NCBI GenBank assembly: GCA_950054155.1
Contig: CATLOT010000019.1
Location: 1 to 64,000 of the forward strand
Direction of reading: 5' to 3'
DNA length: 64,000 nucleotides
DNA from: an uncultured Bacteriovoracaceae bacterium
GTDB lineage: Bacteria; Bdellovibrionota; Bacteriovoracia; Bacteriovoracales; Bacteriovoracaceae
Below are positions 1,989 to 57,232 of this stretch, piece after piece (the stretch's first letter is position 1; the number at the start of each line of letters is the position of its first letter). The notes below the pieces were generated by a model. The model saw only the letters and a list, made by a program, of their open reading frames with translations, ran no database searches and had not been told where the DNA came from. A program made the position numbers and the translations under genes.

Positions 1989-2540
1989 CCACTTATCGAC
2001 AGATTCCGTAAATTCAGCTGCCATAAAGTCTTTAGAGCCTTGAGATACCTCTTGGACTTTACCATCTTTATAGACAATGGAAATTGGGATGGCATTGACG
2101 AGAAAGTCATTAATAAACTTTCCATCTTTATCCAATATTACAGGAAAGTTTAACTTGTATTTCTTGATCGCTTTATCAACGTCTTTTCTGTCACCCACCT
2201 CGTCAGTATTGATTCCAATGACGAGAGCACCCTTTTCCTTATATTTTTCCTGAAAGGCAACAAGTGAGGGAAACTCTTCTAAACAAGGAGTGCACCAAGA
2301 AGCCCAGAAGTTAAGAATAACCACTTTTGGAAGGTCTTTGGATTGAAGTTCCTTTCCGTCTCTAGTCGTACCCTTAAAGCTTGAGAGCATTTTTTCAAAG
2401 TGCTTAGTTTGCTTCACTTGCTTAGAAGCAGTCGTCGCTGTTGGGTCGCCAAAATTAAAGACACCTTGACTCACCAAGTAAAAGGAGAGACCAAAAATGG
2501 CTATAAAAACTGGGATATATTTCTTCATTGTACTCAGCAT
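1980..2540 (-). CDS. TlpA/ResA-like membrane-anchored thioredoxin
   Basis: A 186-residue protein with one N-terminal hydrophobic segment and a thioredoxin fold. WASWCTPCLEEFPSL carries the redox CxxC (CTPC), and IPISIVYKDG matches the cis-proline region. TlpA/ResA proteins reduce disulfides on the outer face of the inner membrane, often for cytochrome c maturation, but no cytochrome gene is next to it. Two starts are possible: ATG 2540 or ATG 2528 (MKKYIPVFIAIFG), and neither has a clear ribosome binding site. The exact substrate cannot be told from sequence. Confidence 0.85.
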   Translation of the reverse strand: MLSTMKKYIPVFIAIFGLSFYLVSQGVFNFGDPTATTASKQVKQTKHFEKMLSSFKGTTRDGKELQSKDLPKVVILNFWASWCTPCLEEFPSLVAFQEKYKEKGALVIGINTDEVGDRKDVDKAIKKYKLNFPVILDKDGKFINDFLVNAIPISIVYKDGKVQEVSQGSKDFMAAEFTESVDKWLK

Positions 2541-2588
2541 TTAACTAATTATAATTATTTAAAGAGATAAGTCTCTAAGGATAGTTAT

Positions 2589-2828
2589 ATGTCATTTATT
2601 ACGTTATTTCACCTCAGGCAAAAAATTCAAAGCAAAAAAGTCGGCTTTAGTAAAAAAGCCAAAGATGAAAGTGGGCAATCATTCATAGAGTTCCTCTTTC
2701 TTCTTCTCATTTTGATGGGGCTGTCCATGACCATGACAACTGGCTTTAACAATACAATAGCCAAGAGATGGAAGGCGATCGTTGAAGCTATCGCCATCCC
2801 TAACGATACAGATACATTCGAACTCTAG
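2589..2828 (+). CDS. Small prepilin-like (Flp/TadE-type) membrane protein
   Basis: A 79-residue protein with AAGGA seven bases before the ATG. A basic N-terminal leader of about 29 residues is followed by DESGQSFIEFLFLLLILMG. That is a good prepilin-peptidase pattern: Gly at -1, Glu at +5, then a hydrophobic helix. The mature part would be only about 50 residues, the size of Flp pilins or the N-terminal piece of TadE-like pseudopilins. No pilus assembly gene is nearby. It precedes glpK by eight bases and may share its transcript. A Flp-type pilin or minor pseudopilin is the best reading; function is unproven. Confidence 0.6.
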   Translation: MSFITLFHLRQKIQSKKVGFSKKAKDESGQSFIEFLFLLLILMGLSMTMTTGFNNTIAKRWKAIVEAIAIPNDTDTFEL

Positions 2829-2836
2829 AGGAAAAT

Positions 2837-4315
2837 ATGGGTCTCATACTCTCAATTGATCAAGGTACCACAGGTACAACAGCTGCTCTCATTGACTCTA
2901 AGTCATTAAAACTCTTAGGAAAGACTAATAAGGAATTTCCTCAAATTTATCCCAAACCAGGTTGGGTCGAACATAACCTCGATGATATTTGGGCAACTGT
3001 TGCCTCTACAATTACAGAGGTAATAACCAAATGTGACGTCTCAACAACTGATATTGTAACAATTGGCATAACAAATCAGCGTGAAACCATATGTGCTTTT
3101 GATAAGCAAGGTCACCCTCTTCACAATGCTATCGTTTGGCAAGACAGAAGAACCCATGAGTTTTGTAAAAGTCATAAAGAGTCACATGAGGCTAAGTTTA
3201 AAAAGAAAACTGGCCTTCCACTCGACCCCTATTTCAGTGCGAGTAAAATGCGATGGCTGCTCGAAAACTCAGATACGGTCAAAGAGCATTCAGCAAAAGG
3301 GGACCTCCTCTTTGGAACAATTGATACCTTTCTTATTTATAAGCTCACCCATTTTGAAGCCCATAAGACAGAGGCATCCAATGCATCGAGGACATTATTA
3401 CTTGATATCAATAATGGTGCCTGGTGCGACGAGCTTTGTGACTTTTTTAATGTTCCCAAAGAAACGCTTCCTTCTGTTGAATCGAGCTTTTCTCTTTTTG
3501 GAAAGACTAAAGGACTCAGCTTTCTTCCAGATGGAATCCCTATTAGTGGTGTACTCGGTGACCAACAGGCTGCACTCTTTGGACAAGCTGGCCTTGAAAA
3601 GGGGATGAGTAAATGCACTTATGGCACTGGCGCCTTTTACCTCCAAAATACAGGTAATGACATTATTCATTCCCAAAATGGCTTACTAACAACTATTGCC
3701 TATCGAGAAAATGGTGTCGACTACTATGCTCTTGAAGGAAGCTGTTATATTGCTGGGGCTGCAGTTCAATGGCTCAGGGATAATTTAAAAATTATCAATA
3801 ACTCTGGTGATGTCGAAGCATTAGCTAAGAATGCAAGTGATGATGGCATGGAGAATATCTTATTCCTTCCCTTCTTTAGTGGTCTTGGTTCACCCTACTG
3901 GGTAAGTGATGCCCAAGCAGCTATTGTAGGTCTCACTCGAGACAGTGGTAATTCAGAACTAGCTCGCGCTTGTCTTGAAGGCATCTGCCTCTCTATTAAC
4001 GATTTAATGGAGAGCTTTGAAAAAGATAGTGGTCACAAAGTTAAAGAGCTTCGTGTAGATGGCGGCGCTGTCGTAAATGATTTTTTGATGCAACTTCAAT
4101 CCAATTTTAGTGAAACTGCTATCATTCGACCTGTCGTGATTGAAACAACCGCTTTTGGGGCTGCCTGTGCCGCAGGCATTGGAAGCAAACTCTTCACCAA
4201 AGAGGAACTAGCAAATAAGTGGCAAGAAGATAAAGTCTTTAACCCCCAAAATAGTGATTACTATAAGCGAAAGAAGAATCAATGGAATGGCGTTATCAAG
4301 AGGCTTTATCTTTAA
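2837..4315 (+). CDS. glpK: Glycerol kinase
   Basis: 492 residues, the usual GlpK length. It phosphorylates glycerol to glycerol-3-phosphate with ATP. SIDQGTTGTTA at residues 6-16 is the phosphate-1 loop; ITNQRET and WQDRRT are glycerol-contact blocks; GDQQAALFGQAG and the later YALEGSCYIAGAAVQWLRD match FGGY-kinase C-terminal motifs. GAGGA precedes the ATG. No glpF or glpD is beside it. The 3' end overlaps the convergent radA by 20 bases. Glycerol from prey lipids is a plausible source, which is inference. Confidence 0.97.
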   Translation: MGLILSIDQGTTGTTAALIDSKSLKLLGKTNKEFPQIYPKPGWVEHNLDDIWATVASTITEVITKCDVSTTDIVTIGITNQRETICAFDKQGHPLHNAIVWQDRRTHEFCKSHKESHEAKFKKKTGLPLDPYFSASKMRWLLENSDTVKEHSAKGDLLFGTIDTFLIYKLTHFEAHKTEASNASRTLLLDINNGAWCDELCDFFNVPKETLPSVESSFSLFGKTKGLSFLPDGIPISGVLGDQQAALFGQAGLEKGMSKCTYGTGAFYLQNTGNDIIHSQNGLLTTIAYRENGVDYYALEGSCYIAGAAVQWLRDNLKIINNSGDVEALAKNASDDGMENILFLPFFSGLGSPYWVSDAQAAIVGLTRDSGNSELARACLEGICLSINDLMESFEKDSGHKVKELRVDGGAVVNDFLMQLQSNFSETAIIRPVVIETTAFGAACAAGIGSKLFTKEELANKWQEDKVFNPQNSDYYKRKKNQWNGVIKRLYL

Positions 4316-10538: not shown

Positions 10539-11896
10539 CTCTAGTCCTCTTTTTTCTACTTTCATTTAACAGCTACTGCTTTAGTGTCGAAAATATTTTT
10601 CAAGACGACTTAACGCTAACAGACAGCTTAAGCATCACTCAAAGCTCTACTAGTAAGCAGGCATCCATCGAAATGCTTCATGGTAAATATCTCTCGGACC
10701 CTAAGAATAGGATATCCAAAGATTTTGATATACCGAAGAAGCTAAGAGATCGTGTCGAGTTTTGGTATCGCGTTTATACTCAATACGAGAGTTATAATAG
10801 CGTTATCCATGATATTGAAAGCCTCGGTATTATTTATGATGTTATAGACTTTAGCGACTTTCAAAAAAGTGGTCTAAACAAGAACACTAGGTATAGCCTT
10901 CAGAACAAAGCTCTCAAGGGTATTGTTCAAAATTATAAAAATGCTTTTAAGAAACTCTCTGTAGGAAAATGTAATAGCCAAAAGTGTAAACAAATTTTAA
11001 GCGCTCTCAAAAAAAATAAAATCAGAATTCCTCAAAACAAGAAAAAAAGGAAAAGGCTCTTCACCAATCTTAGTCGAAACCTAAGAACTCAAACTGGTCA
11101 AAAGGATCACATTCTTAAAGGATTAGATAATCTTAAAGGATATCAAGAAACTATTGAACTCCTCTTTAAAGAATTCGAAATGCCAAACGAACTTCTTGCT
11201 ATAAGTTTTCTTGAATCCAGTTTTAACATTCATGCAAAATCAAAAGTAGGGGCCACCGGTCCTTGGCAATTTATGCGCATCATTGGAAAACATTTCTTTG
11301 TCCAAAATCGGTTTGTAGATCAAAGAAAAAGTCCTGTCATAAGTACTTCAGGTGCACTTCATCTTCTCAAGCAAAATATTCAGATAATGGACAGATGGGA
11401 TCTCGCTGTAAACGCTTACAATAGCGGTACGGGCCTTTTAAGGCGTGGGGTAAGAAGCCTTAAAAAGAAGGGATTCACCAATCCAGGCGTTTCTGAGCTG
11501 ATTGATCACTTCAAGCATCCCAACTGGGGATTTGCTGCCAAGAATTTTTACAGTGAATTCTTAGCGCTCGTTTATACTCTCGCCTACAAAAGTGAAATTT
11601 ACTCTAAAAAGTTCGACGAGCATGATGGTCTTATTGATATTTATGTCACGAAGTGCAGGATTCCTTTATTAAAACTTTTACCAGGACTTAAAAGTACTAA
11701 GCATAATATTATGGCACTTAATAACCATCTTAGTCGTCGTTATCGTAAGAGTTCTTTTCCTAAAGGGACTGTTGTCCTTAGTGATGTAGAGCTCACTGAG
11801 AGGAAGTATTATAAGGTTCCTCATGCAAAACTCAGAAGACGCTATCCCAAGAATCTTCATAAATTTGTGAGAAATCAGAGCTGCTCTAAGAGATAA
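10526..11896 (+). CDS. Periplasmic lytic transglycosylase (SLT/MltD-like)
   Basis: 456 residues with a signal peptide (MGKLTLVLFFLLSFNSYCFS). The SLT domain is at about 215-345: catalytic Glu in FLESSFN near residue 229, then GATGPWQFM and NAYNSGTG, as in MltD-type enzymes. These cleave peptidoglycan to 1,6-anhydromuropeptides. There is a long Lys-rich N-terminal region (about 25-200). The short C-terminal segment has no recognisable LysM repeats, unlike E. coli MltD. It overlaps the patatin gene by 13 bases, and its 3' end overlaps the convergent lipoprotein gene by 22. Confidence 0.88.
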   Translation: MGKLTLVLFFLLSFNSYCFSVENIFQDDLTLTDSLSITQSSTSKQASIEMLHGKYLSDPKNRISKDFDIPKKLRDRVEFWYRVYTQYESYNSVIHDIESLGIIYDVIDFSDFQKSGLNKNTRYSLQNKALKGIVQNYKNAFKKLSVGKCNSQKCKQILSALKKNKIRIPQNKKKRKRLFTNLSRNLRTQTGQKDHILKGLDNLKGYQETIELLFKEFEMPNELLAISFLESSFNIHAKSKVGATGPWQFMRIIGKHFFVQNRFVDQRKSPVISTSGALHLLKQNIQIMDRWDLAVNAYNSGTGLLRRGVRSLKKKGFTNPGVSELIDHFKHPNWGFAAKNFYSEFLALVYTLAYKSEIYSKKFDEHDGLIDIYVTKCRIPLLKLLPGLKSTKHNIMALNNHLSRRYRKSSFPKGTVVLSDVELTERKYYKVPHAKLRRRYPKNLHKFVRNQSCSKR

Positions 11897-13923
11897 GTTG
11901 AGGGTGAGCAGTAAGTTCTCAAATAGTCTTGAGTTCCATCTTGGTAATCGACTTTAATATTAAAGATTCCTTCTTCATTACCTAGGATAAAGAGCTTTTC
12001 ACTTATCGGTGAAATTTCAGCTGTAAAAACACCTTCTGTGTCGAGATAAGCTGTGTCGTATACCGTTGGGCCACGTGCGCCCTCACCAAAGACTCTGATA
12101 TCTTTAATATTTGATTCTATATTTAATTGGAGTAAACATTCATGGTTCATCCCATCAATTGAAAAGGATCTTAGTACTTCTCCAATAAACTCTCTGGACG
12201 GAAGCGTTATTTCCTTATCCCCATCTAGACCGACAAAGATTGAATCTCCAAGGTGACCCACTTCTAAGTAAGTTCTTGAGCCTTTTATTTTCCAAGGTGT
12301 TTGAACTGAGTACTCACCCGGTACTTTTTGAGTTGGGCTTTCACCTGTAGCAAAATTAATAATTTTTTCAGGGGCTAGCGAAAGAGGCTTTTTGCTCTTT
12401 CCAAGAGTATTTCTTAAATAAGTAGCTATTGATAATTCAGAAGGTCTGACCATCTGACTAAAGTCATAAGTTAACTCGTCTGGTGCAATAAATGTTATCT
12501 TTGATGTTTCCTGCCCGTTGATGCCTAAATAGCGGACGCTTACATTTCCGGGATCAACACCTATAAAGAGAATGTAACGAACATTATTCTTTGTTTTTCT
12601 AAATTCATCATTTAAAAGAATTCTGTGTTGGTAGGGTAATCCTTTAAACGAAGATTTTTCTAGCTCCACATCGGCGATCATCTCCCCCATGTCGACAAGA
12701 TAATAACCACCAAATCCATCCAGTTCTGCTTCCTCTAAGTATTCAATCATCGAATCCTGAGTAATCATTGGGATTTCAAACTTTGAGTACTCACTTCCTA
12801 GAGGTATTTCAAAAGTTGTTCTCATAAAATAATTTTTCGAGATAGTACCGCGGAGGACACCAGTATTATTCTTTAATGAGTAGTCATAATTAACCTTGCC
12901 TTCATTAAAGTCTTCATAAACAATTCTATCATCATAGGTTGGTACAAAACTGAAGTTCCTAACGTCTCCACCAAATCCTTTATTAAGGTTTGCTTCTAGA
13001 GCATATAAAGTGACCCTGCTTTGTTCGTTATTGGCTTCTTCATTTTCCTCTTTCTTAGTACTATTTCCTTCCAATGTATTTTTGAGGATGTCCTGCCAAC
13101 TATTATGGCTTACCATCTTAGCGGGAGTCGCTGCTCTTTGCTTGGCCATAACCTGGCTACCCATTTCTCGATCAATCACTTTTTGAACTGCTGAAGAGAG
13201 GGTTGTATTTGCAACATCATGAATATTTTCGCTTTCACTATAATCAATCAAAACCAGCTCATCATTCTTTGTATCTGGTGCTGCTGGTTCTACTTCTTTA
13301 ACAGGTTCAATAGTGATCTCCTGTTGTTCAAACATGGCCAACATTTTTGGATCAGAAGGGTCATAAATATTTTTGTTAGCAGGAGCTGCCTGGGCCACTT
13401 TAACCACATCTTCTTCTGTAACCTTCGTCTCACTTTCAAGAGCGATGCGATTTAATTCAGCTTCGATTCCTTCACCATAAAATTTTGACCAAGCAACGAT
13501 TGTTACCTTAGTTTCCGTACTAAACCCATAGTGATTAATCGGATAGTCATTATTTAAATCGTGCTTTCTTCTTTCTTTAACAACCTTCTTCTTTATAACC
13601 TTCACTTCTTTAAGAGGGCGGGCTTCAAGAATAGGTTCTGCTACTTTATAGACTTTCTTTTTTGGCGGCTCGTAGCTGATCTCTTTTTTCTTAATGGGCT
13701 TAATCTTCCTTACTGGAAGTTTCGTCACTCGCTTTTCAACGACTACCTCTTTAATCGGCGCAGGTGTCTTTTTCACCTTCACAAGAGGGGTTTTAAGCTG
13801 CGTACGAATTGTTGGGATTTTGAATGAAATACTCTTAGGCTGATCTTTGAGGGCACTGCAACCTTGTCCTAAAACAAGGAGATAGATAAGTGTTAATAGC
13901 GACCAGGTAAAGACCTTTTTCAT
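11875..13923 (-). CDS. Large lipoprotein with Lys/Pro-rich linker
   Basis: About 682 residues from the ATG at 13923 (MKKVFTWSLLTLIYLLVLGQGC); an ATG 15 bases upstream is possible but less typical. The lipobox is LGQG-C. Residues about 30-115 are very rich in Lys, Val and Pro (KKTPAPIKEV, KPIKKKEI), like TonB-type periplasmic linkers. The remainder is predicted mostly beta (several YDFSQ- or FEIPLGS-like strands), with no motif I recognise. It probably sits in an outer or inner membrane leaflet and reaches through the periplasm. Function unknown. Confidence 0.65.
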   Translation of the reverse strand: MKKVFTWSLLTLIYLLVLGQGCSALKDQPKSISFKIPTIRTQLKTPLVKVKKTPAPIKEVVVEKRVTKLPVRKIKPIKKKEISYEPPKKKVYKVAEPILEARPLKEVKVIKKKVVKERRKHDLNNDYPINHYGFSTETKVTIVAWSKFYGEGIEAELNRIALESETKVTEEDVVKVAQAAPANKNIYDPSDPKMLAMFEQQEITIEPVKEVEPAAPDTKNDELVLIDYSESENIHDVANTTLSSAVQKVIDREMGSQVMAKQRAATPAKMVSHNSWQDILKNTLEGNSTKKEENEEANNEQSRVTLYALEANLNKGFGGDVRNFSFVPTYDDRIVYEDFNEGKVNYDYSLKNNTGVLRGTISKNYFMRTTFEIPLGSEYSKFEIPMITQDSMIEYLEEAELDGFGGYYLVDMGEMIADVELEKSSFKGLPYQHRILLNDEFRKTKNNVRYILFIGVDPGNVSVRYLGINGQETSKITFIAPDELTYDFSQMVRPSELSIATYLRNTLGKSKKPLSLAPEKIINFATGESPTQKVPGEYSVQTPWKIKGSRTYLEVGHLGDSIFVGLDGDKEITLPSREFIGEVLRSFSIDGMNHECLLQLNIESNIKDIRVFGEGARGPTVYDTAYLDTEGVFTAEISPISEKLFILGNEEGIFNIKVDYQDGTQDYLRTYCSPSTYLLEQL

Positions 13924-20053: not shown

Positions 20054-20425
20054 TTATAGGCTAGAGGGCTGCGTGGAGATACTTTGATTCTTGTCCTTTT
20101 CCCTCATTTTTGTCGTACCATGGAAGATAACTCCCTCTTCAACAATGAGGCTAGGCGTCGTAATCGTTCCCTCAAACCGAGCAGGCTTAATTATCTCTAC
20201 TCGACTACTCGCTTTAATATTGCCCTTAACAGTACCACTGATAAGGATAACATTTGCGTTGATGTCCGCATTTACAACGGCGCCCTCAGAGACGATTACC
20301 GTGTCATTGGAAAAAACACTTCCATTAACGATGCCCGCTATTCTTGCGACGCCATTAAAACTTAGGTTTCCTTCAAATTTACAGCCCTCTTCAATGATGG
20401 CCGATATATCACCCTTATGCCTCAC
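20054..20425 (-). CDS. Bactofilin
   Basis: 123 residues from a GTG start with AAGGA a few bases upstream. The short repeats of a right-handed beta-helix are visible (ISAIIEEGCKFEGNLSFNG, GSVFSNDTVIVSEGAVV, GTVKGNIKASSRVEI), and EIIKPARFEGTI is typical of the bactofilin core. Bactofilins polymerise without nucleotide into cytoskeletal filaments and often position enzymes or chromosomes. It lies 36 bases after parB; bactofilins that scaffold ParAB-parS are known in Myxococcus, so a segregation link is plausible but inferred. Confidence 0.92.
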   Translation of the reverse strand: MRHKGDISAIIEEGCKFEGNLSFNGVARIAGIVNGSVFSNDTVIVSEGAVVNADINANVILISGTVKGNIKASSRVEIIKPARFEGTITTPSLIVEEGVIFHGTTKMREKDKNQSISTQPSSL

Positions 20426-20461
20426 TGCACAGTCCTTGGTCTAGCTGGTCCTATAGGACCA

Positions 20462-21382
20462 CTATCTTTTGAGGAGATACTCGTAGATATCGTTAAACTC
20501 CGCTTCGTTGGTGAATTTTATCACAAATTCACCCTTACCGGCTTTTTTTGATTTTATGTCAAAGTGATAGCCTGTAGTTTGCTCAAGCTTATCTTTAAAA
20601 GGTCCAAGTTTATCGTTGAAATAATTATCCTGGGCTTTATTAGATTTAGGAGCATCTTTCTTCTTAAGAAGCTTTTCCACTTCTCTAATTGAAAGTTGTT
20701 CAGTAACCGCTTGATTAGCAACACGAATACATTTCTCTCTATCTTTTTCACCGGCCAAAACTTTTGCATGACCAAAACTTAGAATCTCTTTTTGAAGAAG
20801 TTCTATGACATCTCTTGGAAGCTTTAAAATTCTTAAAAAGTTAGCAATTGTCGAACGCTCTTTTCCAAGCCTTTTTGCTACCTCTTCTTGAGTAAGATCA
20901 AACTCATTCATTAACTGATAGTAAGCAAGTGCTTCTTCCACACAATTAAGATCACTTCTTTGAACGTTTTCTATGATTGAGACAACCATTTTTTCACGAT
21001 CAGTAAGCTTTTTAATAACGGCTGGAACTCTTTCTAGACCTGCAAGTTTTGCAGCTCTTAATCTTCTTTCCCCAGCAATCAATTCAAATCCCCTTTCTGC
21101 TTTTATAACGACTAGGGGTTGAATAATTCCATTTTGCTTTATTGACTCACTTAATTCATTGAGCTCTTTTTCTTTGAAAATTTTTCTTGGCTGATTTGGA
21201 TTAGGGTGAATTTCAGTGATCGCTATTTGCACTGGACCCTGCTCCCCCAACTCTTCTTTCTTCGCCTCTACTTTTGGAGCTTCATTTTTCTTTGTTTCAT
21301 TAAGAGAAGCTTTTAAAATTTCATTGGGAGTATCTTGAATAAGTGAAGCAATCCCTTTACCTAATGCTACTTTCTTGGCCAT
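20462..21382 (-). CDS. parB: Chromosome partitioning protein ParB
   Basis: 306 residues. N-terminus MAKKVALGKGIASLI is the short ParA-activating segment; NPNQPRKIFKEKELNELS starts the CTPase core (seen in part as HPNPNQPRK), and AGERRLRAAKLAGL (near 97-112) is the conserved GERR box. The central HTH (LTQEEVAKRLGKERSTIANFLR core) reads parS, and the C-terminal domain dimerises. ParB loads on parS and spreads. It follows parA by 14 bases, and two parS sites lie within 4 kb (22316, 24752). Confidence 0.97.
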   Translation of the reverse strand: MAKKVALGKGIASLIQDTPNEILKASLNETKKNEAPKVEAKKEELGEQGPVQIAITEIHPNPNQPRKIFKEKELNELSESIKQNGIIQPLVVIKAERGFELIAGERRLRAAKLAGLERVPAVIKKLTDREKMVVSIIENVQRSDLNCVEEALAYYQLMNEFDLTQEEVAKRLGKERSTIANFLRILKLPRDVIELLQKEILSFGHAKVLAGEKDREKCIRVANQAVTEQLSIREVEKLLKKKDAPKSNKAQDNYFNDKLGPFKDKLEQTTGYHFDIKSKKAGKGEFVIKFTNEAEFNDIYEYLLKR

Positions 21383-21396
21383 GTCTTAAGTCCTTA

Positions 21397-22242
21397 TTAC
21401 TGAAGCTGATCTCTGTATTCTTCTGGAATTTCAGGAACAGTAAAATTGAGTTCTGGTTGATCTATTTCTTTTTGAGAGCGCTCTCTCAAAATGAGCTCCT
21501 TCGCCAAACTGAGATAAGCCTGTGATCCCTTAGATTCAATATCGTATAGAATGATAGGCTGGCCGAAAGATGGGCTTTCAGAAATTTTTACGTTACGTGG
21601 AATAATTGTCTCAAAAACTTTATCACCGAAGTGTTCTTTTACTTCTGTAGAAACCTGCTTATGGAGCGAGGTTCTCGAGTCAAACATTGTGAGAAGTATT
21701 CCCTCTAGATCAAGTGAAGGATTAAGTGAAGATCTCACAAGACGGATTGTATTAAGAAGCTGAGCAAGTCCTTCCATCGCATAGTACTCTGTCTGCAATG
21801 GCACGATAACACTCTTACAAGCTGTAAGCGCGTTCACAGCGAGAACATTAAGGCTTGGTAGGCAATCAATCAGAACGTAGTCGTAATCCTTCATAATCGG
21901 CTCTAAGCAGCTCTTAAGCTTATGCTCTCGAGCAAACTCACTCACTAATTCAATTTCTGCCCCAATCAAGTTTTGATCGGCTGGACAAACGTCGAAATGA
22001 GGGAGTTCTGTATTAAAGATACACTCTTTAATATTCTTCCTTCCGATAATTGCGTGATAGATATTTCTATCTTCAAAGTCTTCTTTATTAAGTCCTGAGC
22101 CCACAGAGGCATTTCCCTGAGGATCAAGATCGATTAGTAGAGTTTTTTTCTCAGCTACTGCTAGACACGCCGCAAGATTAATTGCAGTCGTGGTTTTGCC
22201 AACCCCACCCTTTTGGTTGGCAATTGCAATGATTTTAGCCAT
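21397..22242 (-). CDS. parA: Chromosome partitioning ATPase ParA
   Basis: 281 residues. A deviant Walker A (KGGVGKTTTAIN, residues 10-21) and LLIDLDPQGNAS identify the ParA/Soj type. DYVLIDCLPSLNVLAVNAL and a C-terminal DNA-contact region follow. ParA binds nucleoid DNA as an ATP dimer and moves ParB-parS complexes. In Bdellovibrio-type bacteria ParA matters during multi-chromosome filament growth in prey; that is family knowledge, not shown here. Confidence 0.97.
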   Translation of the reverse strand: MAKIIAIANQKGGVGKTTTAINLAACLAVAEKKTLLIDLDPQGNASVGSGLNKEDFEDRNIYHAIIGRKNIKECIFNTELPHFDVCPADQNLIGAEIELVSEFAREHKLKSCLEPIMKDYDYVLIDCLPSLNVLAVNALTACKSVIVPLQTEYYAMEGLAQLLNTIRLVRSSLNPSLDLEGILLTMFDSRTSLHKQVSTEVKEHFGDKVFETIIPRNVKISESPSFGQPIILYDIESKGSQAYLSLAKELILRERSQKEIDQPELNFTVPEIPEEYRDQLQ

Positions 22243-22279: not shown

Positions 22280-22909
22280 TTAAAGAAGTTCGGATAGTTT
22301 GACAAGATTTTTCTTTGTTCCACGTGGAACAATACTACCCTCATAAGCTATAAAAGTGCGTCCGAGGGTCCCAGAGAGGCCATAAGGCTTATCTATTAAT
22401 TTTCTAAAATTTGCTATCTTTTCTTTTGGGTTTTCTAGTTCGTGAACATTTGGTCCCTTATAGAAGTAGACCTTCGCTTCACTAGAGAGGTTTATCTTTT
22501 TAAGAAACTCTTGGATTTTTCCCACCGCCTTAAAGGAGATACTACAAGGTACATCAATCTCCACAGTTTCAATTCTATGGTGATATGTCTTTACATTCTC
22601 AAGGCCAAGTAAACTTGCAATCTCGTTCACTGCATCCGACTTTTTTCGTCTGGCCTCAAAGCCTATGAATTTTGTATCAGGGTACTTATAGGCTAAGGGA
22701 AGAAGGGGGAAGCCACCACCAAAGCCAATGTCCAGGTGTAGTCCCTTTTTGATCTCATTATCAAAACTCTCAAAAAGAGTTGTTGGCTCAATTGAGTCAA
22801 TAATCTGTTTTTGATAGAACTCCTCGGGATCAGTAATCCTTGTGAGGTTCAAGGTCGCGAAATCCTCATTAAGGAGTTTAAGAAATCTTTCGGAAAAGTC
22901 TTTCATCAT
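22280..22909 (-). CDS. rsmG: 16S rRNA (guanine-527-N7) methyltransferase RsmG
   Basis: 209 residues. The SAM-binding region is LHLDIGFGGGFPLLPLAYKYP, seen here as DIGFGGGFPLLPLA near 60-74, with FIGFEARRKKSDAVNEIA following. It methylates G527 of 16S rRNA. Its start overlaps the mnmG stop by four bases (ATGA), typical of the mnmG-rsmG pair. A perfect parS palindrome sits inside its 3' end, encoding IVPRGT. Confidence 0.93.
   Translation of the reverse strand: MMKDFSERFLKLLNEDFATLNLTRITDPEEFYQKQIIDSIEPTTLFESFDNEIKKGLHLDIGFGGGFPLLPLAYKYPDTKFIGFEARRKKSDAVNEIASLLGLENVKTYHHRIETVEIDVPCSISFKAVGKIQEFLKKINLSSEAKVYFYKGPNVHELENPKEKIANFRKLIDKPYGLSGTLGRTFIAYEGSIVPRGTKKNLVKLSELL
22316..22331. promoter_or_regulatory. 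parS: parS centromere site
   Basis: TGTTCCACGTGGAACA is a perfect 16-base palindrome that fits the ParB-binding consensus TGTTNCACGTGNAACA at every fixed base. It lies inside the rsmG coding region, 74 bases upstream of parA on the minus strand. Confidence 0.92.
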
Positions 22910-24759
22910 AATGTCGAAGCTACGAAGGCTAAGGTTGCAGGGCGAATTCCCTCTATTCTCTTCAGCTGCCCAAATGTTTCAGGCTTTATTTTAGATATAC
23001 GCTGTTTACACTCAAAGCTAAGGTTGGAATTATCTAAAAGACTCTTCCACTCCAGAGTTTTATTTTCAAGCTTATTAAGGGAGGCATTCTCAATCTCTTC
23101 CCTAGCAATATAGCCTCGGTATTTAATTGTGATAGCCACTGTTCTTATAAGTCGATCATCAGCAGTTATGCCACTATTTGCAAGAATACGCTTAAGAGTA
23201 AGAATTGGATCTATGTGACTTCGTTTTAACACTTCGGTTAATGTTGTTTTCTCTTTTAGGCCACCAAGTCCCATATTTTCAAACAGCTCTCTATTTTCAC
23301 GATTGGGCAAATAGTGGGTTTCGTCACAAAGGTTTTCAAGAGCAACTTTTGCTTCGATAAACTTCCTATTGTGGTAATCCACTTCAGAGTTAAGCTCAAG
23401 ACTCTCTCTAAAGTTAAAAAGCCTTTCAATGGAATTATCTTCTCTAATATAGAGCCTATTTTCACTTCTAGCAGTGAATAGCCTATAAGGCTCATCTCTT
23501 TCATTTGTAACGAGGTCTTCGATCATGACACCAATATAAGAAAGTTCCCTGGGAAGAATTAGGGGATCTTTACCTTTTGCTTTAAGAGCAGCATTGAAGC
23601 CAGCAATAAGACCTTGTCCCCCAGCCTCTTCATAGCCGCTTGTCCCGCATACTTGGCCAGCAAAATAAAGCCCCTCGAATGAGTCGTGCTCTAATGTCCG
23701 TTTCATATTGAGTGTATCAACAACATCGTACTCAACTGCATAACCAAATACGTCTATTTCAGCCTTTTCAAGGCCATCTATTGTGCGCAGAAATTCTAAT
23801 TGGATCTCTTTTGGAAGCGAAGTGCTTATACCGTTGGGATAAAAAGAGTCGATATCAAGCCCTTCAGGTTCCACGAATACATGATGAACGTTCCTATCTT
23901 CATAGCGAAACGCCTTATCTTCAATGCTTGGACAGTATCTGGGACCTACTCCCTGAATTTGACCATTAAAAATTGGGCTTCTTTCCTTGTTTTCTCTGAT
24001 AATTCCAAGTGTTTTGGGGTTTGTGCGAGTTAAGAAACAGTCTACTTGCTTTAAATTCCTTGAATTCGCAGAATGATCATAATGAAAGTTGAGAGAGCCT
24101 GTGTCAGAAGGCTGTGCCTCCATTTTAGAAAAGTCTATTGAGTGTCTCTTGATTCTGGGTGGAGTTCCTGTCTTAAACCTCTTTTTAAGGGTTTTTATAT
24201 TAGAAAACAGCTCTTTCATCCCGGGAGATTGGCTAATACCTACTCGCCCACCATCAGTGATATCTTCTCCTGTATGAAGAACACCATTTAGGAATGTTCC
24301 CGTAGTGACTATTAGAAAGGATGTTTTAATATTCTGCTTATCACCGTAAAGACAAAAGTAACCGGAAGGATCCTTTTCCACGCTTAAAACTTTTTCTCTT
24401 ATAACAGTGATCTCGCTCTCTTCGATAATTCTTTCTGCAAACTCAGAGTACTTTTCTTTATCAATTTGAACCCGAGTACTTTGTACAGCATAGCCTTTTG
24501 ATTCATTAAGTGTACGATACTGAATTCCAGCAAGGTCTGCGAGCCGTCCCATGAGTCCGCCCATCGCATCTATCTCTCGAACAACCTGACCTTTTCCCAC
24601 TCCGCCAACAGCTGGATTACATGGAGCACTCCCAAGCCCTACCCCCGGCATAGTAACTATGGCGACACTAAGATTAAATTGATTTGCAGCCCATGCAGCC
24701 TCAAGGCCAGCATGTCCGCCACCAAGAATAGTTATATCGAAAGACTTGAATTGTTCCAC
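22906..24759 (-). CDS. mnmG: tRNA U34 carboxymethylaminomethyl enzyme MnmG (GidA)
   Basis: 617 residues. It has the N-terminal FAD-binding motif ILGGGHAGLEAA, the conserved blocks AMGGLMGRLAD and GRVGISQSPGMKELF, and the C-terminal RPATLAFVAS. With MnmE it builds cmnm5U at the wobble base of some tRNAs. The apparent GTG start at 24759 lies inside a parS site; nothing better is in frame near the FAD motif, though the binding site is weak (AAAGGGT about 12 bases away). mnmE is 60 bases upstream. Confidence 0.95.
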   Translation of the reverse strand: MEQFKSFDITILGGGHAGLEAAWAANQFNLSVAIVTMPGVGLGSAPCNPAVGGVGKGQVVREIDAMGGLMGRLADLAGIQYRTLNESKGYAVQSTRVQIDKEKYSEFAERIIEESEITVIREKVLSVEKDPSGYFCLYGDKQNIKTSFLIVTTGTFLNGVLHTGEDITDGGRVGISQSPGMKELFSNIKTLKKRFKTGTPPRIKRHSIDFSKMEAQPSDTGSLNFHYDHSANSRNLKQVDCFLTRTNPKTLGIIRENKERSPIFNGQIQGVGPRYCPSIEDKAFRYEDRNVHHVFVEPEGLDIDSFYPNGISTSLPKEIQLEFLRTIDGLEKAEIDVFGYAVEYDVVDTLNMKRTLEHDSFEGLYFAGQVCGTSGYEEAGGQGLIAGFNAALKAKGKDPLILPRELSYIGVMIEDLVTNERDEPYRLFTARSENRLYIREDNSIERLFNFRESLELNSEVDYHNRKFIEAKVALENLCDETHYLPNRENRELFENMGLGGLKEKTTLTEVLKRSHIDPILTLKRILANSGITADDRLIRTVAITIKYRGYIAREEIENASLNKLENKTLEWKSLLDNSNLSFECKQRISKIKPETFGQLKRIEGIRPATLAFVASTL

Positions 24760-24767
24760 GTGGAACT
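24752..24767. promoter_or_regulatory. parS: Second parS site, over the mnmG start
   Basis: TGTTCCACGTGGAACT matches the parS palindrome at 15 of 16 bases and shares the core of the site at 22316. On the minus strand its central CACGTG contains the GTG start codon of mnmG, so ParB binding here could affect mnmG expression. Confidence 0.85.
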
Positions 24768-24819: not shown

Positions 24820-26343
24820 CTACTTCCCAATACAAAAATTAGCGAAAATATGGTCGAGAACCTCTTGAGGACTCACTACACCTATTAGCTCATCCATCTT
24901 AGAGCTTAAAATATTCACGTGATGACTGAGAATTGCACAATCATCAAGATCCTGCCCTACACTATAAATATTATTTAATTCATCATAAATAGCTGAAATT
25001 ACGTTACGATGTCTGACAAAAGGGATCGGACTTCCCTCTTTAAGTACTTGATATTCCTTAAGAATCATATTCTCAAGATCATTAAGCGCCCCTATAGGAC
25101 CACTTTCTGAATCTGCCCCCATAGGACCACTCTTCAAATCTGCCCCCATAGGACCACTTTTCGAATCTGCCCCCATAGGACCACTTTTCGAATCTGCCCC
25201 CATAGGACCACTTTTAGAATCTGCCCCCATAGGACCACTTTTAAAATCTGCCCCTATAGAACCACTTTGAAATAACGGAATATCTTTAAATTGTACGGAA
25301 ATAGCCCCTACCCTATCTTTAAACCCATCAAGATCACTGTGGGTAAGAACAATTGCGTCTGGCTTAAGGCCATGAATTTCTAAATCTGAACCAATAAAAC
25401 TGAAAGGATTGATGACTAATATTTTGAAAAAACTCTTTCGATTAATCTCTATACTTTGATCAATACCGATTTTTTCAATCTCTCCTGCACCCTCTCGAAT
25501 ACCAGCGGTATCGATGAGCTTGAAAGGACTGTCACCAAGGTAGATGAACTCTGAAATATAATCACGAGTGGTTCCGTGAATATCACTTACGATTGCGCGA
25601 TTATGACCGACTAATTTGTTAAATAGAGTACTTTTGCCGGCATTTGTAGCACCAATAAGAGAAATAACGGGCGCCATTAAATCGTTAAGATTCCCCTTAG
25701 ATCGTTGATAAAGTTTATCAACCTCAACCCTTAGCTGTGAGAAGTCCCGATTGAGCTTTGACTTAATCTCTTCCTCACCCACGTCTTCTGAAAAATCGAT
25801 AAGTATCTCAACGCTTGCTTTAATTTCAAGAATAAGTTCTCGCAATCGCAGGTAATTCGAATAAAGATCATTATTAAGGGCTTTAAGTCCACTATTAAGT
25901 CCAAATTCACTACTGGCATTAAGAATAAGATCCAAACCCTCAACTTGGGTGAGATTCATTTTATTGTTCTTAAGCGCACGATAGGAAAACTCACCAGATT
26001 GGGCCATTCGAAAGCCAAACTCATCAACTAAATAGCGTAATACCCTCTCCAAATTGAAGGGATTACCATGGAGTGTGAATTCAACGGTATTTTCGCCAGT
26101 GAAACTCTTGGGACCTTTAAAATAAGTAAAAACACCTTCATCTAGTAGCTCCCTATTCTTAGTGTAGAAGCGACTAAAGTATACCTTATGGCTTTCTGGT
26201 TCACTGAATTTGCTTTGGCCAGTTAGGCTAACTAAGAATTTAAGATTCTTAACTCCTGAGACCCTTACAATACCTAAGGCTGACTTTTCCGATGTGCCGG
26301 TACTAATTGCTACAATTGGACCATCGGAAAAGTGAAAACTCAT
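24820..26343 (-). CDS. mnmE: tRNA-modification GTPase MnmE with expanded G5 loop
   Basis: 507 residues, above the usual 450-460. The N-terminal THF-binding domain opens with DGPIVAISTGTSEKSALGIVRVSG (in part: GPIVAISTGTSEKSALGIV). The G domain has P-loop GATNAGKST, switch GTTRD and DTAGIRE; the C-terminal CIGK is intact. G4 reads THSD, not NKxD. In place of the short G5 loop there are six to seven copies of a nine-residue unit (SGPMGADSK), residues about 358-418. The surrounding fold is complete, so the gene looks functional. It partners with MnmG in tRNA U34 modification. Confidence 0.95.
   Translation of the reverse strand: MSFHFSDGPIVAISTGTSEKSALGIVRVSGVKNLKFLVSLTGQSKFSEPESHKVYFSRFYTKNRELLDEGVFTYFKGPKSFTGENTVEFTLHGNPFNLERVLRYLVDEFGFRMAQSGEFSYRALKNNKMNLTQVEGLDLILNASSEFGLNSGLKALNNDLYSNYLRLRELILEIKASVEILIDFSEDVGEEEIKSKLNRDFSQLRVEVDKLYQRSKGNLNDLMAPVISLIGATNAGKSTLFNKLVGHNRAIVSDIHGTTRDYISEFIYLGDSPFKLIDTAGIREGAGEIEKIGIDQSIEINRKSFFKILVINPFSFIGSDLEIHGLKPDAIVLTHSDLDGFKDRVGAISVQFKDIPLFQSGSIGADFKSGPMGADSKSGPMGADSKSGPMGADSKSGPMGADLKSGPMGADSESGPIGALNDLENMILKEYQVLKEGSPIPFVRHRNVISAIYDELNNIYSVGQDLDDCAILSHHVNILSSKMDELIGVVSPQEVLDHIFANFCIGK
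25091..25270 (-). repeat. 27-bp in-frame tandem repeat in mnmE
   Basis: Six full 27-bp units (25091-25252) plus a partial seventh. Units 3 and 4 are identical; the others differ at one to four positions, mostly in the middle of the unit. Each unit encodes a nine-residue block with Ser-Gly-Pro-Met-Gly-Ala at its core. The length is a multiple of three, so the frame is kept. Such repeats change length by slippage or recombination. Confidence 0.95.
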
Positions 26344-28585: not shown

Positions 28586-28836
28586 TACATCCTCACGGAA
28601 CTAGTCACATTAACTTCTGAATATCTGATTTCAAGATGCGCAATTTACAAAACGATCTGTAAAAAATCAATGGCCTATGGCAAAAAAGTGGGTGCCAATT
28701 TTGTGACAGTTTGTAAGAAGAGTTCAGTTTTATTTCGCAACAAGTCATATTGCTTCTTCCCCCCTACTCAGGTACAAACTTTTTCCACAACAGAACACAA
28801 TCAAAATTGCACACACAGTAGTTGGAGACAAATCAC
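28586..28836. promoter_or_regulatory. Divergent rpmH-dnaA intergenic region
   Basis: 251 bases hold the promoters of the minus-strand rpmH block and the plus-strand dnaA. One DnaA-box-like TTTTCCACA occurs near 28790, close to dnaA, which would allow autoregulation. I see no convincing -35/-10 pair and no gene. Confidence 0.5.
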
Positions 28837-30456
28837 ATGACTCAAGGATTTCCCTTCGAAAAATTTCTCAAATCCACACCTCAAAAAGAAGAAAAAACTA
28901 ATAAAAATGATGACTTACTAAATTCTATTTTTAATCAAACACAAAAACCAAGCACCGCCACTTCACCGGAAAAAGCCCAACCTTCAACGGTAAATCTCTC
29001 CCAATCAGAAGAAGAAAGCGCACTAGAGCCCATCCTTGAGGCCCTCTATCCGATGCTAGAAGCAAATATGCCATCAATAAAATTTGATACGTTCATCAAA
29101 AATAAAATTAAGCTCATCAGCTTAAGTGACACCAAAGCAACCTTTGAAACCCAAACACAATTTATTAAATCCACACTTGAGACCAATTATTCAGACTTTT
29201 TCAAGAAAGCCCTTCAAGAACTTATGGGCTCTTCTTACACAATAGAATTCACTAATAGCAGCTCCCCTCTCAACTCGAATCTGAAAGAGTCACTCCAATC
29301 TCTTTCAGAGGACAAACCAAACCCCACAAAGGAAACTAAGAACTTCTTCACACTGGACCTCACTCCTAATCAAGACGAACTAAAAGACCAGGCAGAAGGT
29401 CGCTATATTAACCACATGGAGAAACAAAGCTCAGGCATTGTTATCGATCCAAGTAAAACTTTTGATAACTTCATCGTTGGCCCTTCAAACAACCTCGCTT
29501 TCGCAACTGCAAGTGCAGTATCAGACAGCCCAGGAAAGTCAGGGAAGTATCCCTGTCTCTACCTCTACTCCGACAGCGGTTTAGGAAAGACTCACCTTCT
29601 CCATGCTGTAGCCAATGGCATCTTTGCCAATCATCCTCATATGAAGATCTGCTTAATTTCAGCCAGAGATTTCATGAAGGAACTTATCAATGCCTACAAG
29701 GATAAAACTCTTTCAGAATTTCAAAGAAAATATACTGAAAGTGTAGATGTTCTTATGATTGACGACATTCATGAGCTGAAAAATAAAACCTCTACTCAAG
29801 AGGAGTTCTTTCACATCTTCAACTTTCTTCACGATAAAGGTAAGCAACTTATTTTCACTTCAGACAAGTCACCAGATAAAATCACTGGCATTGAAGAGAG
29901 AATTATCACCCGTCTCCAATGGGGCCTAGTTGTCGATATCCAAAAGCCGGACTTTGAAACAAGAACGGCGATCTTAAAGAAAAAGGCTATTGAGTTAGAT
30001 CTTTTTATCCAAGATGATGTTTTAAATCTTATCGCAAGCTCTATTAAGACATCCATTCGCGAGCTCGAGGGAAACCTCATTAGACTTCAAGCTCACGCAG
30101 ACATCATGGAAGCTGAAATTGACACAGAAATGGCTAGAGACATCCTCAAGCTCCAAGAAATCAACGAGAGACCTGCAGCAACTCTAGAGAGCGTCTGCAG
30201 AGCAAGTAGCCAGTACTTTAAAATCGCTGTTCCAGACTTAAGATCTAAATCACGCAGCAAAAATATTGTGAAGGCCCGCCATATCGCTTGGTACCTCAGT
30301 AAGAATATTGTTGGGGCGACCTTTATGGAAATTGGTAAGTACTACAGTAATCGCGACCACACATCTGTCATGCACGGAGTGAATAAGATCACTGAGCAAC
30401 TTAAAGGCGACAGCCAATTATCAAAAGACCTCATCTTTCTCGAAAATAATATTTAA
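28837..30456 (+). CDS. dnaA: Chromosomal replication initiator DnaA
   Basis: 539 residues from ATG 28837 with GGAGA eight bases upstream; an in-frame TTG at 28822 overlaps that site. Residues 1-65 are a Ser/Gln/Pro-rich extension before the usual domain I (about 66-140), which lacks the normal early Trp. The AAA+ domain has Walker A SDSGLGKTHL near 248-257 and Walker B VLMIDDIHE near 305. The domain IV signature is SNRDHTSVMHG near 503-513. It opens oriC at TTATCCACA boxes just downstream of its own stop. Confidence 0.97.
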   Translation: MTQGFPFEKFLKSTPQKEEKTNKNDDLLNSIFNQTQKPSTATSPEKAQPSTVNLSQSEEESALEPILEALYPMLEANMPSIKFDTFIKNKIKLISLSDTKATFETQTQFIKSTLETNYSDFFKKALQELMGSSYTIEFTNSSSPLNSNLKESLQSLSEDKPNPTKETKNFFTLDLTPNQDELKDQAEGRYINHMEKQSSGIVIDPSKTFDNFIVGPSNNLAFATASAVSDSPGKSGKYPCLYLYSDSGLGKTHLLHAVANGIFANHPHMKICLISARDFMKELINAYKDKTLSEFQRKYTESVDVLMIDDIHELKNKTSTQEEFFHIFNFLHDKGKQLIFTSDKSPDKITGIEERIITRLQWGLVVDIQKPDFETRTAILKKKAIELDLFIQDDVLNLIASSIKTSIRELEGNLIRLQAHADIMEAEIDTEMARDILKLQEINERPAATLESVCRASSQYFKIAVPDLRSKSRSKNIVKARHIAWYLSKNIVGATFMEIGKYYSNRDHTSVMHGVNKITEQLKGDSQLSKDLIFLENNI

Positions 30457-30536: not shown

Positions 30537-30970
30537 TCCCTCAATCCACATTTCTCCACAAGTTACACACGCCATAATTGGGGGAAATCACTTAAAAGAG
30601 AAAAGTTATCCACAAATTAACATATATGGAAAACTTACTTATCCACATATCCCCAATGGGGATAAAAAGTTATTAACATGTGGATAAAAATGTGGATAAA
30701 GTCCCCAAAAAAGCCAATATATTTGACTACTCGGCCAAACGAAAATAACTGTGGGGATAACTTGTGGAGGCCGCATTGAATCACGTCAATAATTTGTGAG
30801 AAAAATAATAATATACGAATTAAGCAGTTGCGCATTTGGAAGTTATTAACAACTACACAATTGGCCAAAACGTCAAAAGCCCGACTGGCCCGGTGCTAAC
30901 GAGTTTATCCACTTATCAACGGCCTATAATAAATATTAAAATAAATATATATATACATATATAAAAAGAA
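30537..30970. other. oriC: Chromosomal origin of replication, oriC
   Basis: The 581-base gap between dnaA and dnaN holds no gene. It has four perfect DnaA boxes: TTATCCACA at 30606 and 30639, and the reverse TGTGGATAA at 30679 and 30691. Close variants are TGGGGATAA at 30657 and 30752 and TTATCCACT at 30905. An AT-rich tract follows the last box. Gene direction switches here from mostly minus to mostly plus, as expected at an origin. Confidence 0.93.
30905..30968 (+). other. Candidate DNA unwinding element of oriC
   Basis: TTATCCACT and TTATCAAC are followed by GGCC and then about 42 bases almost all A/T, with an early three-base rhythm (TAA, TAA, ATA). This DnaA box, GC clamp, AT trios layout resembles the basal unwinding element described in Bacillus subtilis. 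Confidence 0.65.
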
Positions 30971-56036: not shown

Positions 56037-57232
56037 GTCCCTCTGTAAACGAATACGTAAATCAGTTTGAAATTCATCAGAAATTAGTCGCTATGGTAAG
56101 CGACTTTTTGGGTTTTGATGCTTCAGGATTGATGGCCTTCTTGGTCTTCGCAGTTACAGCTTTTGCAATTGTAAATGTTATGGCCCTTATCGGTGGTCTT
56201 GGAACCTATGCTGAAAGAAAGATTTCTGCAGACATTCAATTAAGACAAGGCCCAAACCGCGTTGGACCTTACGGTATCCTTCAGTTTCTTGCTGATGGTG
56301 TAAAGATGATTATGAAAGAGACGATTTATCCTGCTCAAGCGGATAGAGCTCTCTTCAACCTAGCTCCGGTTCTTGCCCTTCTTGGTGTTTTTGCCACACT
56401 AGCCGTTGTTCCCTTTTCATCAGGCTTTACTCTCGCAAACTTAAATGTAGGTGTTTTCTACCTTATAGGTGTTGGTTCTCTTGTTGGTGTTGCTGTCTTC
56501 TTAGGTGGGTATGCAGCCAACTCAAAATGGTCAATGCTTGGAGGTATGCGTGGTGCCTCTCAGATTATTAGTTATGAAGTACCTGTAACAATAACAACAC
56601 TCAGTATCGTTCTTCTTGCTGGTGGTCTTAGCTTTGGTCACTTTGTTGAGAATCAGGGAGGTTTTCCTCACGAATGGTTTATTTTTCATAACCCATTCAC
56701 GTTTATTGGTTTCTTTGTTTTCTTTGTAGGGATGCTCGCTGAGACAAACAGAGCCCCCTTTGATCTCCCTGAAGCGGAATCGGAGCTTGTTTCTGGTTAC
56801 CACACTGAATATACAGGTATGAGGTTTGGTCTCTTTGCTCTTGCAGAATATATCGAAGTATTCGTTCTCTGTGGTGTTGCCGTTGCTGCTTTCCTTGGTG
56901 GTTATAAGGTTCCATTCGACCTTGGAAACGGGGTTATCTTTGTTGAGAAGCTAGGGCTTCCAGCAATCATCGGGAAAAATATCGGTCAAGTTCTTCAGCT
57001 TGGCTCTTTCGTAACGAAGACACTTGCACTTTATTATGTCGTAATTTGGGTTCGTTGGACTTTTCCAAGAATCAGAGTCGATCAAGTGATGACAATCTGT
57101 TGGAAATATCTTACTCCAATCGCACTTTTTAATTTAATTGGCGTTGTCTTTTGGATGTACGCATTTGATAACCAATCACTTTGGGAAATTCTTAGCCACT
57201 TAGGCGGTGGTTCACACGGTGGGCACCACTAA
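56033..57232 (+). CDS. nuoH: NADH-quinone oxidoreductase subunit H
   Basis: 399 residues. The quinone-tunnel motifs are intact: AERKISADIQLRQGPNRVGPYG (in part: RQGPNRVGPYGILQFLADG) and AETNRAPFDLPEAESELVSG. Eight or nine helices. It ends in a His-rich tail (GGGSHGGHH). It links the membrane arm to the quinone site. nuoB, C, D, E, F, G and I are not in the operon here. Confidence 0.97.
   Translation: MSPSVNEYVNQFEIHQKLVAMVSDFLGFDASGLMAFLVFAVTAFAIVNVMALIGGLGTYAERKISADIQLRQGPNRVGPYGILQFLADGVKMIMKETIYPAQADRALFNLAPVLALLGVFATLAVVPFSSGFTLANLNVGVFYLIGVGSLVGVAVFLGGYAANSKWSMLGGMRGASQIISYEVPVTITTLSIVLLAGGLSFGHFVENQGGFPHEWFIFHNPFTFIGFFVFFVGMLAETNRAPFDLPEAESELVSGYHTEYTGMRFGLFALAEYIEVFVLCGVAVAAFLGGYKVPFDLGNGVIFVEKLGLPAIIGKNIGQVLQLGSFVTKTLALYYVVIWVRWTFPRIRVDQVMTICWKYLTPIALFNLIGVVFWMYAFDNQSLWEILSHLGGGSHGGHH

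Follow-up and report, generated by a model that had tools for sequence, protein, structure and literature searches.

The window, a 64,000 bp stretch of contig CATLOT010000019.1 from an uncultured member of the Bacteriovoracaceae, carries the genes yidC-mnmE-mnmG-rsmG-parA-parB-bactofilin in that order on one strand and, on the other, dnaA (28822–30456, plus strand), which marks the origin side of the cluster. With dnaA, parA and parB among the neighboring genes, this stretch represents the replication origin region. The parA gene (21397–22242, minus strand; product ParA1) lies next to parB (20462–21382, minus strand), which codes for a canonical ParB (ParB1) with an LGKGI ParA-binding motif. 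Pattern searches placed one ordinary parS, TGTTCCACGTGGAACA, within rsmG (22316–22331), where it is conserved across the family, and a variant, TGTTCCACGTGGAACT, at the start of mnmG (24752–24767). Beyond the intergenic space downstream of parB is a bactofilin-like gene (20054–20425, minus strand), named from the appearance of its sequence and from the parB-bactofilin gene order reported for B. bacteriovorus (PMC10547168). The mnmE gene is an intact ORF of 507 codons (24820–26343, minus strand), identified by matches to PF10396, PF12631 and NF003661 in Pfam and NCBIfam searches, and its product of 507 aa hosts a repeat array in the loop on the G5 side.

This array is by far the strongest tandem repeat detected in the window by TRF (25088–25268; period 27, 6.7 copies, 92% matches, score 285). 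The earlier note had described it as an in-frame tandem repeat in a loop of the MnmE G domain, and the TRF result and the intact reading frame bear this out, as does the inserted peptide, which reads GSIGADFK-SGPMGADSK(x3)-SGPMGADLK-SGPMGADSE-SGPIGA. Overlooked at that stage was a palindrome of 14–16 bp common to the units: each 27 bp unit contains one copy of a palindromic DNA element, TGGT[C/T]CTATAG[G/A]ACCA. A pattern search resolves the array into seven such sites separated by 13 bp spacers, with the core GCCCCTATAGGACC at site 1 (25088–25101), GCCCCCATAGGACC at sites 2 to 6 (25115–25128, 25142–25155, 25169–25182, 25196–25209 and 25223–25236) and GCCCCTATAGAACC at site 7 (25250–25263). 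Also overlooked was a lone perfect copy, GGTCCTATAGGACC, in the gap between parB and the bactofilin gene, just downstream of parB (20447–20460), and a site is found at the same place in those relatives within the genus whose parB region was examined, one of which has two. In total, the window contains 8 matches with up to 3 mismatches, compared with 1.29 expected, and a count of 8 was reached in 0 of 100 shuffled sequences. The units are homogenized in this genome and their number varies between species of the genus (5–8 sites), both in keeping with the earlier note. Further, weak short tandem repeats occur in the window at 11101–11141, 13568–13613, 30655–30700 and 56466–56507.

Nearly all genomes of the family have, at this place in MnmE, 1–11 motifs of the form G[PS][IM][GE][PA], separated by unrelated spacers. 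Reverse complementation of the codons turns each permitted peptide variant into another permitted one (GPIGP into itself, GPIEP into GSIGP, GPMGA into APIGP), a pointer to a palindrome in the DNA. Among 132 motifs from 35 mnmE genes, picked by protein sequence alone, there is hardly any variation at the third codon bases (GGT 126/126, CCT 95/99, TCT 33/33, ATA 83/88, GGA or GGG 101/101, and CCR or GCR 132/132), while codon usage is mixed in the rest of the same genes; the copies are non-independent, through array duplication and shared ancestry, and the effect is still overwhelming. The same 14–16 bp occur in frames 0, 1 and 2 of mnmG, mnmE, dnaA and other origin genes. Out-of-frame copies are found in mnmG (frame 1 in L074, L087 and L095; frame 2 in L078), mnmE (frame 2 in L075 and L094) and dnaA (frame 1 in L072), and intergenic arrays with a spacing of 23–34 bp are present at four loci (L070, L071, L074 and L086). 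The 16 bp consensus derived from 33 intergenic sites is identical to that given above; of 211 sites, 39 consist of two perfect GGTCCTA halves, and half-site variants are few. The element is thus selected as DNA. A reading of GPIGP and GPMGA as a protein motif, including a collagen-like one, is ruled out by the third codon bases and the out-of-frame copies, and the same observations, together with the intergenic copies, speak against the proposal that the repeat grew from a native motif of the G5 loop. The exact 14-mer was not found in the literature searched, which covered few of the subscription journals.

Two genomes present natural experiments. In G034, MnmE (454 aa) lacks the insertion and three intergenic sites lie beside mnmG, while in G019 there is none in MnmE and a seven-site array occupies the linker of ParB1, between LGKGI and the CTPase domain. 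These arrangements show that the array shifts between host sequences and remains at the origin. At the G034 locus (L086, G034:C179, 3312–9726), mnmE and mnmG are about 6.4 kb apart, with the palindromes in the part of the gap beside mnmG; the units of the G019 array (L091, G019:C163, 8941–9103) are 27 bp long and carry seven palindromes. The genomes of L086, L091, L093 and L095 are without the element in MnmE yet bear it elsewhere at the origin. Its presence tracks the chromosome origin and not MnmE biochemistry, and the suggestion that the loop tunes GTPase activity is not supported. An assembly error, which the earlier note had raised as a possible undoing of its account, is contradicted by the occurrence of the array in dozens of independent assemblies, one of which has only two contigs.

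The distribution of the element was surveyed in genomes that were mostly MAGs. Matches to GGTYCTATRGRRSC were found in 123 of 129 genomes of the class, including 73 of 73 good ones, and controls were near zero. Five of the six class genomes lacking a match also have no mnmE match at E<=1e-30, and the sixth (G036) has a weak GTPase match only, indicating that the origin region is missing from them. In a sample of the phylum, matches occurred in 50/50 genomes of the family, and 142 genomes of other families were at control level. In the near-complete genome G008 (two contigs), all 15 matches surround dnaA/parAB in a stretch of about 18 kb, and those of G016 (19 matches) and G020 (18 matches) are confined to the origin contig, where they occupy no more than 21 kb and 6 kb, respectively; a genome-wide mobile repeat is ruled out by this restriction. 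The span of the new sites takes in the ordinary parS at 21 of 32 loci, among them all six testable loci of this genus, and a new site is often 300–370 bp from a parS. The consensus is conserved across 47 genera; in genus g5 the sites are few and degenerate. The sites therefore cluster at the replication origin around ordinary parS, and they share their distribution in the phylum with a parA2-parB2 operon described below. Stray sites distant from the origin (L115–L118) did not point to a regulator gene. The sole IMG/VR match (L149, 1961–2012) lies in a collagen-like protein of a phage, in which GPIGP is encoded twice, a chance mimic of the palindrome, and so provides no link to phages.

The consensus of the new site, TGGTYCTATAGRACCA, does not conform to the pattern of canonical parS, TGTTYCACGTGRAACA, and parS of the canonical type are present as well. 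It has the length of parS, and its half-site shares 5 of 8 positions with that of the family parS (TGGTCCTA versus TGTTCCAC), a degree of likeness that random sequences would show with a probability of about 3%. The resemblance is weak but would fit binding by a ParB-type protein such as the one described next. The family parS itself, TGTTCCACGTGGAACA (this window and L064–L099), differs from that of other families of the phylum, TGTTTCACGTGAAACA (L100, L101 and L103). This base change extends through the class, in a centromere that is normally conserved.

Searches with ParB1 retrieved a second ParB-like protein (ParB2) from each near-complete genome. At E<=1e-20, ParB2 is present in 49/50 family genomes and in 0/142 others; in the exception, G032, a contig end truncates parA2 at the very point after which parB2 would be expected. 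The genomes without sites or ParB2 were checked individually, and are explained by missing contigs. A gene for a ParA-type ATPase (parA2; PF13614, PF01656) lies directly upstream of parB2 at 36 of 36 loci, so the pair forms a second parAB operon. In G008, G013 and G020 this operon and the origin are 0.3–0.4 Mb apart, and no site lies close to the operon. The ParB2 of G000 is encoded at C20:71292–72179.

ParB2 has a ParB/Noc-type architecture. It matches PF02195 and, over residues 43–191, TIGR00180, and the CTPase motifs GERRxRA and ENxxR are kept, with G96, E97, R98, R99, R101, A102, E132, N133 and R136 invariant in 29 orthologues. The Pfam HTH_ParB model (PF17762) gave no match to ParB2; an HTH is near-invariant among about 38 orthologues, with G[IV]SK[ST]EVHR in nearly all, plus EKYVL. 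Among solved structures, ParB2 is nearest to Noc in sequence, and its predicted fold (model pLDDT 74, pTM 0.46) is nearest to those of Noc, KorB and ParB (E to 4e-11). At the positions that determine specificity, ParB has R-x-x-G and Noc has Q173, K179, K184 and R201 (PMC7383237), and alignments mapped by eye give K170, S176, K/R181 and K197 in ParB2, with other DNA-contact positions of its HTH likewise differing from both ParB and Noc. The score against the Noc equivalog TIGR04285 was 90.6 bits, below the cut-off of 315. The LG[KR]GL ParA-binding motif is absent from ParB2, all orthologues of which begin with a sequence resembling MAKxFAPRVSKKKRK, and its contact with ParA is possibly divergent. 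The C-terminus has two helices (260–295, at moderate model confidence) and no Pfam match. No close plasmid relative appeared among the matches listed, the best-listed plasmid ParBs being only about 32–35% identical over 66–71% of the protein. Several but not all genomes also code for a third ParB_N-domain protein of about 300–330 aa with no recognized HTH (L105, G000:C13:40000-46000, 2141–3112; also L107, L109, L111 and L114).

Taken together, the repeats are not there for the protein and are probably docking sites of a second, undescribed ParABS. We consider it likely that they form a parS2 array belonging to a second chromosomal ParABS, common to the class (Bacteriovoracia-like), and serve as binding sites of its ParB-type protein. 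ParB2 dimers would recognize the 16 bp palindrome (for example, TGGTCCTATAGGACCA), and ParB2 loaded at these sites may close into CTP-dependent clamps that cover the origin region. ParA2 would act on ParB2, helping to segregate, position or anchor the origin, perhaps aided by contacts to the ParB1 complexes that load between the clusters, or the system would shape the ParB1 complex. MnmE would merely lend a disordered loop in the right place, where in-frame tandem duplication is tolerated. Proteins bound to DNA are a studied class of obstacles to sliding ParB. In a more specific form, with chances that we put at about even, two complete ParABS would have interleaved centromeres at one origin, with ParB2 clamps at arrays on either side of parS setting the limits, the anchorage or the timing of the ParB1 partition complex, and parS2 would be kept in coding genes by way of disordered loops. 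Several points count against a second ParABS: the operon is far from the sites, as is not the case for many plasmid par loci, ParB2 lacks LG[KR]GL and is unmatched by HTH_ParB, the half-site likeness to parS could be a chance one, and the g5 sites are few and degenerate. A phyletic match would, by itself, fit any class-specific gene, and it is binding to ParB2 and a role in segregation that we infer.

The DNA-level evidence would hold equally for any binder, and the array could be an origin-proximal target of another protein (ParB1, another ParB_N protein or some class-specific factor), acting as an origin, replication-control or anchoring site. We regard this as rather unlikely. ParB1 occurs phylum-wide while the site is restricted to the family, and its RxxG contact residues are retained, along with canonical parS. 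The third ParB_N protein is a candidate, being present in several of these genomes; however, no copy of it was detected in G016, a genome with 11 sites, and it shows a ParB_N match only, with no HTH. Far less probable are two further readings. A selfish or neutral palindromic repeat spreading by duplication near the origin would account for the homogenized tandem units and for the variation in copy number between species, and palindromic repeats within genes are known from the Rickettsia palindromic elements, but such a repeat would not be expected to remain origin-restricted in whole genomes, to keep its consensus across 47 genera with limited half-site variants, or to stay in the origin region when its host gene changes. 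At the protein level, a length-variable GxxGA loop in MnmE might tune the GTPase or form a multivalent peptide-binding array; the repeats are nearly always in frame in the mnmE loop and the peptide motif recurs with diverged spacers, but the invariant third codon bases, the out-of-frame and intergenic copies, the loopless MnmE of several genomes and the array in a ParB linker contradict this, and it too is very improbable.

The preferred reading, that of a second ParABS, resembles several known systems in part. As in chromosomal ParABS/parS, a ParA gene lies beside that for a ParB with CTPase motifs and an HTH, and short palindromes cluster near oriC, but here the second operon is far from the sites, the palindrome differs at core positions 2, 6 and 7, the tandem arrays are mostly inside a coding gene, and ParB2 is without LG[KR]GL. 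Noc of Bacillus is likewise a ParB paralogue with a distinct, parS-like 16 bp site (NBS), and is the best sequence match to ParB2 among solved structures. Unlike the Noc sites, which are scattered over the chromosome, those described here are found only at the origin, ParB2 has its own ParA partner, and its specificity residues are K-S-K-K and not the QKKR of Noc (PMC7383237). Two ParABS per cell, each with its own parS, are also found in Vibrio cholerae (ParABS2) and with the Streptomyces plasmid SCP1, in the latter case on one replicon (PMC13245405), whereas here both sets of sites would be together at one chromosomal origin and common to a whole class. Extra factors acting on the origin region occur in related bacteria as well: PadC of Myxococcus is a ParB-like adaptor to bactofilins (PMC12704722), and in Bdellovibrio, where a bactofilin gene adjoins parB, there is an effect of the DNA flanking parS (PMC10547168). 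The other families of the phylum, including the Bdellovibrio lineage, have neither the palindrome nor ParB2 in the genomes sampled.

If the proposal is correct, an entire bacterial class segregates one chromosome by means of two ParABS with overlapping centromeres, an arrangement that the literature searched, which covered few of the subscription journals, describes only for plasmid SCP1 (PMC13245405). The class would then provide a natural test case for the coexistence of two ParB clamps that differ in their sites, and the proposal would bear on the placement of many origins in predatory filaments and on the factor that in Bdellovibrio acts on the DNA flanking parS (PMC10547168). The bacteria of this class, which have the element close to their replication origin, are often predatory. 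More generally, when a conserved enzyme contains an odd repeat, the repeat can be a DNA element for which a disordered loop provides free space, a point of importance to annotation and to the reading of protein repeats. In G015, the assembly is broken at the mnmE array, which has at least 10 copies of a 24 bp unit, and two contigs, L079 (G015:C18, 1–160) and L098 (G015:C7, 1–250), both end within it.
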